Positions 4,575-16,537 of a stretch of 64,000 nt of DNA are shown one piece after another. The notes beneath the pieces are model-generated. The model saw only the letters and a program-made list of their open reading frames with translations, was not told the origin of the DNA and did not search any database. The stretch is from Streptomyces violaceoruber (GTDB lineage: Bacteria > Actinomycetota > Actinomycetes > Streptomycetales > Streptomycetaceae): NCBI GenBank assembly GCA_000720805.1, contig JODI01000003.1, forward strand, positions 242,683 to 306,682. The letters run 5' to 3'. Position 1 is the first letter of the stretch. Each line of letters starts with the position of its first letter. The translations under genes were made by a program, and so were the position numbers.

Positions 4575-5015
4575 TCAGTGCTCAGGTGACTCAACAGGCG
4601 CGGAAGTGACCAGTTCTGTCAGTACGCCGTGGCAATCCTTCGGATGCAGGAACGTGATCCGTGACCCCATGGAGCCGCGTCGCGGCTCTTCGTACAGAAC
4701 CCGTACGCCCTTCTCCTTGATGTCGGCGGCCTCGGCGTCCACGTCCGCCGTGCCGAAGGCGATGTGGTGGACGCCCTCGCCGTTCTTCGCGAGCCACTTC
4801 GCGACGGTGGAGTCCTCCCGCGTCGGCTCCAGGAGCTGCAGGTACGACGCCCCGCCGTCGGACGTATCGTTGATCTTGAGCATGGCCTCGCGTACGCCCT
4901 GCTCCTCGTTGACCTCGGAGTGGAACACCTCGAAGCCGTACGTGGCCCGGTAGAACTCGACGGTCGCGTCGAGGTCGTGGCAGGCGATCCCGATGTGGTC
5001 GATTCGCGTCAGCAT
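4575..5015 (-). CDS. mce: Methylmalonyl-CoA epimerase
   Basis: A 146-residue VOC-superfamily enzyme that interconverts (2R)- and (2S)-methylmalonyl-CoA, feeding B12-dependent mutases and propionate metabolism. The expected metal ligands are visible: His7 in IDHIGIACHD, Gln60 in YLQLLEP, His83 or His84 in GVHHIAF, and a Glu near residue 134 in VLTEL. It is divergent from the thiolase gene, with about 150 bp of promoter space between them. The MeaB G-protein two genes away fits the same pathway. Length is normal for the family. Confidence 0.95.
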   Translation of the reverse strand: MLTRIDHIGIACHDLDATVEFYRATYGFEVFHSEVNEEQGVREAMLKINDTSDGGASYLQLLEPTREDSTVAKWLAKNGEGVHHIAFGTADVDAEAADIKEKGVRVLYEEPRRGSMGSRITFLHPKDCHGVLTELVTSAPVESPEH

Positions 5016-12427: not shown

Positions 12428-13231
12428 TCACAGCCCGAAGCGACGCTGGAGGTCCCCCAGCTGTCCGGGAAGGCGCGGTACCCCCGGCTGCTGTCCGGGG
12501 CCCATCGGACCGCCGCCCCCGCCGGGCACTCCGGCCTGCTGCGGAACCGCCCCCGTGGCCTGCTCGGCCATGAGCGCCTCCGACGACTGCAGCAGGACCG
12601 TGCCGGCCCCGACGAACTCGAACTGGTGCTCCTCGCCGGAGGCCCCACCGACGCCCGTCATCGCACGTAGACCGCCCATCAGGCCGGTCATGTACCCGTG
12701 GTCGTAGTGATGGCACGGGGAGGGGCAGTCGGCCCATCCGACAAGCGCTTGCGGGTCCACCCGGATGGGGGGCTCCATGAACACCACCGGTCCGTTGGAC
12801 GCGGCCACGAACTTTCCGGTTCCGATGAGTGTCAGAAAACCGGGCACGATCGACTGTTTGAGGGCAAGACTTGGCTGAAAAGCGAGCAAGTTGCCCGAGC
12901 GAATGGTCAGGTTGCCGTTGTCGAGGTCGTAGGAGTTCACGTCGAAGGCCCGGTCGGCCAGGAGCATCTTGCCCGAGCCCTCCGCCACGACCCAGTCGGC
13001 GGCGTGCAGAGGCGAATGGAAGGACGTACGGACGAGGCGGTCCAGCCGGCCGTGCCCGATGCCGTTGAAGTCCATCTGGCCGTAGTAGGCGATCATCTTC
13101 CCCTTCTGCAGGAACCACTGGCTCCCCTTGAGCTCCACGCAGAAGGTGTAGTTGTTGACATTGTCGTCGACCGGCAGGGTCATGGGGTCGTAGACCGTCG
13201 GGCCGCCGCCCGGAGCCCCGTACATGCTCAC
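12428..13231 (-). CDS. AIM24-family protein, third gene of the triplet
   Basis: A 267-residue AIM24/TIGR00266-like beta-rich protein, the longest of three tandem paralogues. It lacks a signal peptide. Visible features are the repeating beta pattern (KGKMIAYYGQMDF, GTGKFVAASNGPVVFM), the motif IRVDPQALVGWADC shared with its neighbours, and a Gly/Pro-rich tail from about residue 225. Its start overlaps the previous paralogue by 4 bp (ATGA). The family's biochemical role in bacteria is not established. The Cys/His content around CPSPCHHYDH is not seen in the two paralogues. Confidence 0.88.
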   Translation of the reverse strand: MSMYGAPGGGPTVYDPMTLPVDDNVNNYTFCVELKGSQWFLQKGKMIAYYGQMDFNGIGHGRLDRLVRTSFHSPLHAADWVVAEGSGKMLLADRAFDVNSYDLDNGNLTIRSGNLLAFQPSLALKQSIVPGFLTLIGTGKFVAASNGPVVFMEPPIRVDPQALVGWADCPSPCHHYDHGYMTGLMGGLRAMTGVGGASGEEHQFEFVGAGTVLLQSSEALMAEQATGAVPQQAGVPGGGGGPMGPGQQPGVPRLPGQLGDLQRRFGL

Positions 13232-13878
13232 AGTTTCTCCTCCGAGGCCTGGACGTACACCGCGCCGTTGCCGCTGAGCTCCAGCTGGAACGCCTCTCCG
13301 GAGCCGCGGCCGACCATGTCCCGCCAGCCCAGCGCGGTGGACAGCTTGTTGCGGACGTCGCCGTGGTGGGCGACGTAGGCCTGCGGGTCGACGTGGACCG
13401 GGCGCTGCGGGGTGATCGGGACCTCGATGACCCCGCCGTGCGCCATCACCGCCACCGCGCCGTGCCCGCGCAGCGTGGTCGTGAACAGGCCCTGGCCGGT
13501 GACCTGGCCGCGGACCATGCCCATGACGCCGCCCTGGGAGCCCATGAACATCGTGCCCTGCTCCAGGGTGCCCTCGAAGGCGAGCAGCCGGTCCGCCTCC
13601 ACGTACAGGGTGTCGCCGGTCATGGTGATCACCTGGACGTGGTGGCCGCCGTGCCCGAACAGCACGGTGCCGCTGCCCTCGACGGTCATCAGCGGCGTCG
13701 CCTCGTTGGCCACCCGCCGTCCGATCATCGACATGACGCCGCCCTGGCCGCCCTGGATGTTCGGGGTGAAGGACACCTCGCCCCGGTAGGCGAGCATCGC
13801 CCCGCGCTGACTGAACAGCCGCTGTCCGGGCATGACGGTCGCCTCGACCATCTTGGAGTTGATCTCACGCAAGGCCAT
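13228..13878 (-). CDS. AIM24-family protein, second gene of the triplet
   Basis: A 216-residue AIM24 paralogue with VMPGQRLFSQRGAMLAYRGEV, several Gly-rich beta turns and VHVDPQAYVAHHGDV, the last equivalent to VDPGAYIAHQGNL in the first paralogue. It starts one base after the stop of the upstream gene and overlaps the next by 4 bp, so the three are one translation-coupled operon. Soluble, with no membrane segment seen. No function can be assigned. Confidence 0.88.
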   Translation of the reverse strand: MALREINSKMVEATVMPGQRLFSQRGAMLAYRGEVSFTPNIQGGQGGVMSMIGRRVANEATPLMTVEGSGTVLFGHGGHHVQVITMTGDTLYVEADRLLAFEGTLEQGTMFMGSQGGVMGMVRGQVTGQGLFTTTLRGHGAVAVMAHGGVIEVPITPQRPVHVDPQAYVAHHGDVRNKLSTALGWRDMVGRGSGEAFQLELSGNGAVYVQASEEKL

Positions 13879-13879
13879 G

Positions 13880-14512
13880 TCAGACGTCCCCCGCGATCGT
13901 GTTCCGCTCGCTCGGCTGGACGTACACCAGGCCGTCCCCCTCGAAGCGGATCTGGAAGGCCTCGCCGCCGCCCTCGCCCATGAACGTGCGGAACGTCACG
14001 CCGGACTGGAAGGACTGGCGCAGGTTGCCCTGGTGGGCGATGTACGCCCCCGGGTCGACGGTCAGCGGGTACTGCGCGCTGACCCGCAGCACGACCGCGG
14101 GCCCGTCCGACATGATCGCGGCCTGGCCGTGTCCCTCGATCGTCGTCGTGAACAGCCCGTTGCCCTGCGAGGCCCCGCGCACCCCCGTGAACGACGTGCC
14201 CGTGCGCAGGGTCGAGTCGGTCGCGAGCAGGTTGCTCGACTCCACGTAGAGCTTGTCGCCCTGGAGGGCGACGAGGTTGATCTCCGAGGCCCGGTCCGCG
14301 AACCAGCACGTCCCGTGCCCCTTCACCTCCATCAGTGTCATCTGCTCGCCGGTGATCCGCCGGGTCACCATCCCCCGGATGCCCTCACCGCCGCCGCTGA
14401 GCTTCTTGAAGTCCATTTGACCGTCGTACGCGACCATCGAGCCGTTCTTCGCCTTCACGGCGTCCCCGGTCATGTCGACGGCGAGCACCTTGCTGCCTTG
14501 AAGTCGGAACAT
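13880..14512 (-). CDS. AIM24-family protein, first gene of the triplet
   Basis: A 210-residue AIM24 paralogue starting MFRLQGSKVLAVDMTGDAVK. The open frame reaches back to 14551, but the ATG at 14512 gives the family start and is preferred. The protein is beta-rich and carries LTVDPGAYIAHQGNLRQ near the C-terminus. It is the promoter-proximal gene of the triplet. Just upstream, within about 80 bp, lie a run of nine G and the 3' end of the TnpB-related gene on the same strand, so the original promoter region may have been disturbed by that insertion. Confidence 0.85.
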   Translation of the reverse strand: MFRLQGSKVLAVDMTGDAVKAKNGSMVAYDGQMDFKKLSGGGEGIRGMVTRRITGEQMTLMEVKGHGTCWFADRASEINLVALQGDKLYVESSNLLATDSTLRTGTSFTGVRGASQGNGLFTTTIEGHGQAAIMSDGPAVVLRVSAQYPLTVDPGAYIAHQGNLRQSFQSGVTFRTFMGEGGGEAFQIRFEGDGLVYVQPSERNTIAGDV

Positions 14513-14585
14513 CGCCACGGAGCGAAGGTAGCCGTCGGGAGGCTCCGCCAACAGGGTCTACGGGGGGGGGAGGCGCACCCTGATC

Positions 14586-14670
14586 ACACCGTTCCTAAAG
14601 ACTGAGCGGGAATGAGCCCTGTTGCCAGGACTCGTGCTCAGCCGAACACCCCGAACGGTGTTGGGTGTTC
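14586..14670 (-). ncRNA. Nested stem structure over the 3' end of the TnpB-related gene (omega-RNA-like candidate)
   Basis: Concentric complementary arms are visible: ACACCGTTC (14586-14594) with GAACGGTGT (14653-14661), inside it CTGAGC (14602-14607) with GCTCAG (14636-14641), and inside that CCTG (14618-14621) with CAGG (14626-14629). An adjacent hairpin GAACACCC/GGGTGTTC spans 14644-14670 and competes for the outer arm. TnpB guide RNAs overlap the 3' end of tnpB in just this position. An RNA role here is inferred; the same structure could be the element's DNA end. Confidence 0.4.
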
Positions 14671-16238
14671 TGGTCCACCGCGTTCGCTCCGCGTCCGGGC
14701 CGTACGGATCGTGTCCGTGGTCCGGGGATGCGGGGGCGGTTTCCCTCACGCCCCGGGGCTTCCGGTCGGGCCTGGACGGTCCGATGCCCCATACGATCAC
14801 TCCGGTCGTGTGGGGGCGGTGCTGTCCGTCGCCGGATCGGGTGTCCCAGGGCGCGTCTTCCGATGGCCACGGCGGCCGCGTCGTGGCGGGTGGTCTTCCT
14901 GGTGGTGGTGGTGAGGGGCTTTTGCCAGTGCTGGGCTCCCCACTTGCTGGTGTAGGCGGGGTCGACGGCGATGACGGGGATGCCGAGTTCGGCCGCCATG
15001 GACACGAGCCGGGCCCGCAGCCTGGCCACGGGCATCCCGGAGATCAGCTTGCGGAACCGCTTGCGGCGGCCGTGCTTCTCGCGGGTCTTCTCCGTACTGA
15101 AGTCGAGATCCTCCACCGCGAGGGCGAGTCCGTGGCGTTGGGCGAAGTGCAGGAGGCGGATGAGGGCGTGGCGGATCTGGGCGTCGCGGTGGTCGGCGGT
15201 GCCGGTGAGGTCGTAGCCGAAGCGCAGTGGCTGGCCGACGGGGTTGCCGTGTGCGTCGAGACGCCAGGCGGCGAGGTGGTCGGCGTTGGTGTCCACGCCG
15301 ACCAGGCCGTTCGCCCGTGCGGTGGCCAGGGGCACCCTCTGGACGGGCGGGATGGTCCAGGACGCGGTCAGGTACCAGCGGTCGCGGTCGGTGTCTTCGT
15401 GGATGCGGTAGGCCACGGCCCGGTTCACGGTGATGCGGTCGCGCCAGGTCTCGCCCCGGTGCGGGAACGTGACGCGCGCGGCGAGGACGTAGCGGCCGTG
15501 CGGGGCATTGGCGAGGTGGGCCAGCGGGGCCGGGAGCCGGATGCTCACCTTCCCGTCCGGGCTGACACGGATGGTCTCATTGCCGTACCGCTTGCCGGAC
15601 TCGCCGTCGGCCTGGAGGAAGCGGCGGGAGGCTTCCCACCGGCGGCGCCACGCGTCCTGGGTGAGCTGGGCCTGCTCCAGGTGGTGGCGGGTGGTCAGCA
15701 GCCGTTTCCCGCCGCGTACCACCCGTACCCGTCCGGCCTCCCGGTCGGCCCGCTCCCGTTCCAGCCGGTCTTCCAGCACCCGCAGGCGGCGACTCTTGGC
15801 GAACCACTCCTTCTGGCTGCGGTAGCCGCCCGCCGCCCGCTTCGTCCCCTTCGCCCCGACCGGCAGCGACAGCCGGCGCCGGACTGTGTCGACCCCGGCT
15901 TCCAGGCTGTTCAGGTGCGCGGCCTGGCCGCGCCGGGCCAGCGCCCACTGATCGTGTGTGGCCTTCGTGAGCGACCCCGCCCACCGCGACGACGACCGGC
16001 CGGTCAGCTCCCGCTTCCGCTCGGCCCACCGATCGCCGTCGTGCTCCAGACCGTCCGCACACCGCGTCTTCAGATCACGGGAGGCCAGCGTGCCCAGGTG
16101 GTCCCCGACCAGGCGCAGCACCTTCTCGTCGTCGGCGGTCAGGCCCTTGAGGCGGTCCCGGACCGCAACCCCCGAAGGGCCGGGCACCAGGAACGGCGCC
16201 GCCACCTCCCGCAGCCCGCCCAAACCCCTCACCCCCAC
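14595..16238 (-). CDS. TnpB-related protein (IS200/IS605-type accessory nuclease family), no zinc ribbon
   Basis: 547 residues. A basic helical N-terminal half ([35 protein letters not shown]) precedes a RuvC-like fold with the expected acidic triad: Asp316 in [11 protein letters not shown], Glu376 in [10 protein letters not shown], Asp453 in [10 protein letters not shown]. Canonical TnpB has a CxxC...CxxC ribbon between the second and third acids, after DPAYTS; here that stretch (residues 427-453) has no cysteine. The last 80 residues are Arg/Pro-rich and overlap nested stems. No TnpA transposase gene is nearby. The family is common in Streptomyces; whether it is a guided nuclease, a regulator or decaying is open. 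Start chosen as the longest frame; the conserved region begins by about residue 25. Confidence 0.8.
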
Positions 16239-16537
16239 CCGGCATCGAAGACCCTGTCACCGCACTCAACGACCACCGCACGCGAAGGTCACGCATTCGA
16301 CGGAAGAACTCCCGTTCCTGTCGGCCGGAAGTCCGTCCTCACTCATGCTGACGAATGCGCACTCGTACACGGTCAAGCGCCAGCAGTCACCCCTGAGGGA
16401 GGCGAAGCCCGGCCCCGAGGGGGCCGTCGCCCACCGACCGGGAGCCGTTTGCCACAATGGGCGAACGTTTGTGCTCGCATTCACAAACACCGTTCCCACC
16501 ATCCACCGTCCGACGTCTCTCCCACCGAAGGTGACCC
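16239..16537. other. Intergenic region before DUF3817 gene
   Basis: 299 bp without a convincing gene. It contains a short GC hairpin (GGCCCC-GA-GGGGCC type, around 16412-16426) and, before the DUF3817 start, TTGCCACAATGGGCG followed by an AT-richer stretch that could hold its promoter. A possible 5' end of the TnpB-type element lies here, but no terminal repeat was recognised. Confidence 0.4.

Follow-up and report, generated by a model that had tools for sequence, protein, structure and literature searches.

Do the nested stems that lie over the stop codon of a TnpB-related gene in Streptomyces violaceoruber form the scaffold of a guide RNA, and to which kind of mobile element would such a scaffold belong? 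The gene is located on the minus strand of a 64,000-nucleotide (nt) stretch of contig JODI01000003.1, the whole of which is called the window here and is numbered from its first letter; the features of the element given below are on that strand. An original prediction, made from the letters of the window, had placed three nested stems and a competing hairpin at the 3′ end of the gene. The present analysis gives a probability of roughly 80 % that a covarying structure of about 250 nt, which closes the right end of an element of the IS607 lineage, acts as guide-RNA scaffold for the TnpB-related protein that this element encodes. It is very likely a genuine scaffold of a TnpB-like system, a kind that is already known. 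What appears to be new is the Asp-Glu-His (D-E-H) active site of a zinc-less IS607 lineage, together with short elements that carry the scaffold and lack tnpB; the RIII-r4 clade of TnpB proteins (PMC10278001) was compared by description only.

Structure at the 3′ end of the tnpB gene

The strings on which the prediction was based are present in the window: ACACCGTTC (14586–14594) pairs with GAACGGTGT (14653–14661), CTGAGC (14602–14607) with GCTCAG (14636–14641), CCTG (14618–14621) with CAGG (14626–14629), and GAACACCC (14644–14651) with GGGTGTTC (14663–14670), the last two being the arms of the hairpin. The nested stems are confirmed, with two revisions. The two outermost pairs lie beyond the fixed end of the element: bases 14586–14587 are flank and vary among copies (GT starts 6 of 76 flanks), and the outer stem is one of 7 base pairs, ACCGTTC/GAACGGT. 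The inner stems are longer than first noted and consist of GGCTGAGC/GCTCAGTC, with one G-U pair, around the hairpin GAGTCCTG/CAGGGCTC (14600–14643). In minus-strand order, the terminal 90 bases hold the GAACACCC/GGGTGTTC hairpin, the GGCTGAGC/GCTCAGTC stem around GAGTCCTG/CAGGGCTC, the stop codon TAG (14595–14597) and, immediately after it, GAACGGT (14588–14594), the final bases of the element.

The idea that the hairpin (14644–14670) competes with the stems was rejected. The arm ACCGTTC (14653–14659) sits within the loop of that very hairpin and therefore forms a pseudoknot with GAACGGT, so that both helices can coexist. The structure extends upstream to about 14837. The putative scaffold (omegaRNA/reRNA) is placed at 14588–14837, its approximate 5′ limit being drawn from covariation, from the loss of the codon-position signal and from the sequence shared with a TnpB-less element. 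In its upstream part lie a small hairpin, CACGGA/TCCGTA (14703–14719), and a 5′ hairpin, GCCC-C-CACACG/CGTATG-GGGC, with the loop ACCGGAGTGAT (14786–14817). The predicted fold of the last 90 nt is 3.2 standard deviations more stable than that of dinucleotide shuffles (4 of 200 shuffles equal it); for the 250-nt stretch the difference is 1.9 standard deviations (5 of 200).

Short inverted-repeat insertions are found within the scaffold of loci L020, L038, L042 and L140. The same two sequences recur in different copies, and they are probably a very small mobile repeat.

Covariation and loss of the codon signal

Related copies were taken from a genome collection in which 173 stretches encode a relative. 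The best 80 of these loci and two more full copies in the window's own genome (L002 and L003) make up 82 copies. Alignment A1 contains the window and those 76 of them whose right ends align down to the final 3 bases (77 sequences, 75 distinct); L056, L061, L074, L082, L083 and L085 were excluded by the right-end cut, L061 nonetheless ending in GAACGGT. The structure tested comprises 47 pairs in 6 helices. In A1, 90.7 % of the cells are paired, against 26–41 % when the partners are slid by 1–3 columns. The covariation score is 0.239 as compared to 0.094 ± 0.004 in shuffles, none of 500 of which reach it, and 19 of the 47 pairs show double changes versus 14.9 ± 1.6 in shuffles, 5 of 500 of which reach 19; kinship among the sequences can by itself beat all shuffles in such a test.

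The signal differs between the helices and is strongest in two of them. Double changes are seen at six of the ten pairs of the 5′ hairpin, where each of these six positions uses two to six standard pair types and double changes occupy up to 38 of 72 cells, and at six of the eight pairs of the GAACACCC/GGGTGTTC hairpin. The small hairpin is paired in 94.9 % of cells, with one double-change pair in 12 sequences. The pseudoknot is paired in 98.3 % of cells and nearly invariant, with one double-change pair in one distinct sequence of A1. It is changed on both sides, to ACCGTTAC and GTAACGGT, in L120 from a Mycobacterium avium plasmid, and reads ACCGTTC/GAACGGT in the plasmid relatives L121–L123; the element ends are not fixed in these four loci. 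RNAalifold on the 77 sequences recovered both main hairpins in full and the small hairpin in part. In Rfam, no family matches the window, nor this RNA in nine related loci; the sole hit in those loci, an ALIL match in L120, is located away from the RNA.

The inner stems of 21 sequences of a second type are out of register in A1, and the two types were therefore counted separately. In the second type, CAGTGA/TCACTG replaces the inner stem and is equally well paired. In the 56 sequences of the window type, the GGCTGAGC/GCTCAGTC and GAGTCCTG/CAGGGCTC helices are paired in 97.9 and 92.1 % of cells, respectively, and covary less than the others, at one pair each. The covariation that the original prediction proposed to look for among homologues is strong in all 77 sequences and in the 56 of the window type, and weak in the 21 of the second type taken alone.

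The gene itself bears the mark of a second constraint. Up to about 14830, identity to the window is 0.40–0.80 at third codon positions and mostly 0.7–0.99 at first and second positions; from about 14800 on, the three positions are equally conserved, and in the final ~240 bases of the coding sequence the codon-position signal is gone (70 rows, window included). Residues 470–547 are predicted by AlphaFold2 to be unfolded, with a predicted local distance difference test (pLDDT) score below 50. The earlier suggestion that the C-terminal part of the protein is constrained at the level of the RNA is thus borne out, for some 77 residues, by the lost codon-position signature and the predicted lack of a fold.

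Ends, flanks and empty sites

The whole element spans 14588–16389, with its left end at 16389 and its right end at 14588, and has no transposase gene inside. When the right end was left unforced in the comparison, similarity broke off at 14588, give or take a few bases, in almost every locus. The element ends in GAACGGT in 71 of the 77 sequences and in a variant differing by one or two bases in the other six, and the 20-nt flanks beyond it are all different among the 76 full flanks. One fixed end base followed by all-different flanks is what would be expected at the junction of a scaffold and its guide. The predicted guide consists of the 20 nt that immediately follow the right end (14568–14587); the IS607 TnpB of ISFba1 works best with a 20-nt guide (PMC11061315).

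On the left, the end comes after a run of G. A sequence pattern located it in 32 of the 77 sequences; the pattern requires GGG before T, which makes those positions circular. The window's own left tip (16380–16394) reads GGGGT-GACTGCTGG, as compared to GGGGTTG(T/G)GAACTGCTGG in many copies, and is about 5 nt shorter, perhaps through damage.

Relatives of the host retain the site without the element. A flank match was found in 50 of 61 genomes of the genus, and 30 loci, including the window's own, were compared. In 29 of the 29 relatives' loci examined, the flanking AIM24 and DUF3817 gene sequences are adjacent with no element between them. The junction was aligned in 13 of the 29: AGGGGT-NNNN-TCAGGG is exact in four and others are close variants, while the window has AGGGG[element]T-GTGA-TCAGGG. 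The flank of L002 was matched in 2 of the 61 genomes, its own included, and one of two places in the other genome (G016) is an empty site, GAAGGG-C-TGGCG against GAAGGG[element]T-TGGCG. Copies have GGG(G) before T on the left and CGG before T on the right, which together with the two empty sites places insertion at a GG-containing core. It follows from these comparisons that insertion takes place after the G run and that the base after CGG is a T which is part of the pseudoknot. The predicted target-adjacent motif (TAM) is AGGGG in the left flank (16390–16394); a G run precedes the copies, and AGGGGT occurs in the empty site of four of the 13.

Some further features were also observed. Beside the insertion, at 12428–14551, lie three consecutive genes of the AIM24 family (PF01987), two of which share ~71 % DNA identity over 151 nt. 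In L033, a full extra right end (4635–4760) directly follows a copy without its last ~47 nt, and L087 has a second right end (4854–4962) about 230 nt after the first.

Elements with the scaffold and without tnpB

A covariance model built on the last 95 bases matched 9 places in the own genome, 3 of them with the full gene, and gave matches in 13 of the 61 genomes of the genus. Several of the matches are elements of about 366 nt without tnpB. A DNA search requiring at least 300 of 366 positions gave 12 such matches in 6 of the 61 genomes: six in G079, two in the own genome, one each in G007, G024 and G064, and one, at 70 %, in G026. The elements (L155–L160, L163, L164, L168, L172, L176 and L178, of which L160 has no right end) can occur several times per genome with different flanks; the right end is present in 11 of the 12 matches (not in G026), and the 11 flanks all differ. 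No TnpB match was found within ~1.5 kb on either side of any of the 12.

In nine of these elements that were aligned, the left tip (a G run and TTG) is present in five and absent in four, and all nine share about 250 bases of scaffold, ending in ..GGAACGGT or GGAATGGT. One TnpB-less element is similar to the window element from 261 nt before its end, close to the 5′ limit set by the codon positions. The pseudoknot loop of the ten scored is ACCGTTC in nine and ACCGGTC in one. All six genomes with TnpB-less elements are among the 13 of 61 that have a TnpB match at an E value of 1e-30, G026 with a fragment only; for the five better genomes, the chance of this co-occurrence is 2.2e-4 under random placement, a figure that ignores kinship of the genomes.

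In the own genome, L137 and L140 are TnpB-less elements and L136 looks like a decayed relic. L138 (contig C178) and L139 (contig C97), whose right ends are ~94 % identical to that of L063, lie at contig edges and are likely full second-type copies broken by the assembly.

The TnpB-less elements may serve as guides in trans. A wider proposal, to which we give somewhat less than even odds, is that nuclease and guide have become separated in this lineage: the ~366-nt Streptomyces elements, consisting only of ends and scaffold, would borrow TnpB and transposase from other elements in trans. Every copy would carry a guide that targets the empty site of that copy, with the result that one nuclease would serve a dispersed array of selfish guide-only elements.

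The TnpB-related protein

The gene (14595–16238) encodes 547 amino acids. Its product scores 33.1 bits with TIGR01766 (cut-off 32), and stays under the cut-offs of NF040570, the NCBIfam model guided_TnpB (47.1 bits; cut-off 100), and PF07282 (19.8; cut-off 26.3). AlphaFold2 predicts a folded part at residues 1–469 (14832–16238; mean pLDDT 71.8, predicted template modelling score 0.55) with a Cas12f/TnpB-like fold (WED-REC and RuvC); outside the unfolded tail, pLDDT falls below 50 at residues 1–13 and 380–404. The catalytic positions are Asp316 of RuvC-I (15291–15293), Glu376 of RuvC-II (15111–15113) and His452 of RuvC-III (14883–14885), the last replacing the canonical Asp. They are invariant, in 87, 87 and 86 (one gap) of the 87 proteins of the loci alignment and in 240 of the 240 listed homologues. 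His452 and the canonical TnpB Asp were matched by eye, as the automatic alignment does not pair them and the profile comparison with canonical TnpB spans residues 373–433 only, short of RuvC-III. The zinc-less relatives of the Thermus type do align automatically, and 120 of 120 have Asp at the third position.

A C-terminal zinc ribbon (CxxC..CxxC) was found in none of 333 sequences and in none of the 120 Thermus-type relatives; zinc ribbons occur in "many", not all, TnpBs (PMC10711439). The Thermus-type proteins (P0241–P0360) carry a separate Pfam family, PF27229, and retain Asp-Glu-Asp (D-E-D). A sequence match to Cas12m (23vu, E 0.0046) was dropped as a sign of kinship; the changes in the characterised Cas12m proteins are at other positions. 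His at the third position is compatible with activity in the RuvC of T. thermophilus (PMC3834835) and in Cas9, and because it is also strictly kept here, this TnpB relative has probably remained a nuclease.

Assignment to IS607 and mobility

The element is assigned to the IS607 lineage. An IS607-type transposase gene lies directly upstream of tnpB in 22 of the 80 loci, 64 of which have long upstream DNA, and is also found in four plasmid relatives (L121, L122, L129 and L131, from Curtobacterium, Streptomyces, Pseudomonas and Mycobacterium); three of the transposase proteins were confirmed as NF033518. An IS605 (Y1) origin was rejected: no Y1_Tnp was found in the own genome; a control search of 14 named genomes detected it in 5.

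No transposase gene accompanies the window copy, L002 or L003. A search of the own genome for an IS607 transposase gave weak matches only (31.4 and 25.2 bits; cut-off 110), and a search of its 350 contigs for one of the L063 type, run without a positive control, gave none. The window element is therefore likely to derive from one with a transposase, and is either mobilised in trans or no longer able to move. With respect to viral carriage, eight stretches fit a pattern and none encodes a relative.

Proposed function and alternative explanations

A minus-strand transcript would run through tnpB into the right flank. Its scaffold would fold with the loop sequence ACCGTTC paired, as a pseudoknot, to GAACGGT, the seven terminal bases of the element, and the next ~20 nt, specific to each copy, would act as the guide. 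Since a chromosome without the element carries the G-run motif followed by the same flank, the complex would recognise the empty site and may cleave it, which would favour retention of the element.

The guide-RNA scaffold of the original prediction is supported by covariation, by an end fixed to one base in the 77 sequences, by all-different flanks and by retention of the scaffold in elements without the gene, production of the RNA itself being predicted. Absent from that earlier picture were the pseudoknot, the IS607 (not IS605) lineage, the covarying 5′ hairpin, the D-E-H site, the loss of the zinc ribbon and the TnpB-less elements. Several results are less clear-cut. The 21 second-type sequences taken alone are paired in 94.6 % of cells versus 94.1 % in shuffles, with 4 double-change pairs versus 1.3. 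RNAalifold on the 77 sequences gave no pseudoknot and proposed other pairs, some of which use the last bases differently. A wobble-based strand test was mixed and not decisive, mismatches of the G-U kind do not outnumber those of the A-C kind in the 5′ hairpin, and the single TnpB-less scaffold for which a fold was computed does not exceed shuffles in stability (z −0.67). Finally, a purely RNA-level view of the tail has to contend with a reading frame retained in 70 of 77 sequences and with 79 of 87 proteins that reach or pass the end of the window protein.

The alternative that survives best, possible yet on balance doubtful, accepts the scaffold and takes its complex to bind DNA under RNA guidance without cutting both strands, akin to Cas12m or TldR, which would for instance silence or block the empty site. 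The replacement of the third catalytic Asp by His in every listed homologue speaks for it, as does the finding that Cas12m proteins with atypical triads bind and do not cut (PMC11013384, PMC10442227). Against this, all three catalytic positions are invariant, unlike those of a decaying site, Thermus RuvC and Cas9 can be active with His at the third position, and the characterised Cas12m triads are altered elsewhere, with the zinc finger kept in the solved structure.

It is improbable that the stems are DNA-level sites for transposase binding or excision. Their location at the element end and the lack of G-U excess in the 5′ hairpin would fit such a role; recombination between matching dinucleotides, by which IS607 elements insert (PMC10711439), should however need no 250-nt set of hairpins, no matching set was seen in the left-end comparisons, the only place where one was looked for, and pairing of a loop with the tail is a published feature of TnpB guide RNAs. 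Slightly less probable still is a functional protein tail as the cause of the conserved 3′ end, with stems that merely follow from the use of GC-rich codons; the retained frame and shared protein end argue for it, and against it stand third codon positions conserved like the first and second, the predicted lack of a fold, the compensatory pairs and the scaffold in gene-less elements.

The protein adds a distinct active-site type, Asp-Glu-His without a zinc ribbon, to the TnpB nucleases, which are thought to be ancestors of Cas12. As the zinc-less Thermus-type group keeps Asp, the Asp/His swap is directly testable. The scaffold would be one that is nested within coding sequence, and the natural elements with a scaffold and without a nuclease gene offer a test case for the use of guides in trans by TnpB.

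Comparison with known systems

ISDra2 TnpB and its omegaRNA belong to the IS200/IS605 lineage and have a zinc ribbon and a D-E-D site, unlike the system described here. TldR proteins are nuclease-dead TnpBs that have lost catalytic residues; in the present protein one of the three catalytic positions is replaced, and invariantly so.

Within open PMC papers, no D-E-H TnpB and no TnpB-less scaffold element was found to be reported. The RIII-r4 clade shares an atypical RuvC-III with the present protein (PMC10278001). Cas12m is likewise a TnpB-like RuvC protein of which several members have a non-canonical triad; the characterised triads are H-D-D, N-D-D or D-E-D (PMC11013384, PMC10442227). It differs in being linked to CRISPR, and the solved proteins have their His at RuvC-I instead of RuvC-III and possess a zinc finger. 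Fanzor and pro-Fanzor proteins carry DPG at RuvC-I and a Glu six residues before the zinc finger (PMC10711439), neither of which is seen here: the RuvC-I motif of the loci alignment is DTN in most and DMN in some proteins. The T. thermophilus RuvC (PMC3834835) is, unlike the predicted RNA-guided protein of the window, a dimeric junction resolvase that is not guided by RNA.

Two IS607 systems are available for comparison. The RAGATH-18-guided TnpB of ISFba1 has 387 amino acids and takes its RNA from a non-coding region (PMC11061315), unlike the protein and scaffold of the window. The TnpB of ISXfa1 and its reRNA (PMC10711439) share with the present system the serine-recombinase lineage, a scaffold at the right end, a pseudoknot from a loop to the 3′ end and the use of a fixed right-flanking base, which serves the scaffold in ISXfa1. 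The differences are that the protein studied here has no zinc ribbon and D-E-H instead of D-E-D, that its scaffold of ~250 nt lies within the coding sequence, and that the window copy has no transposase.
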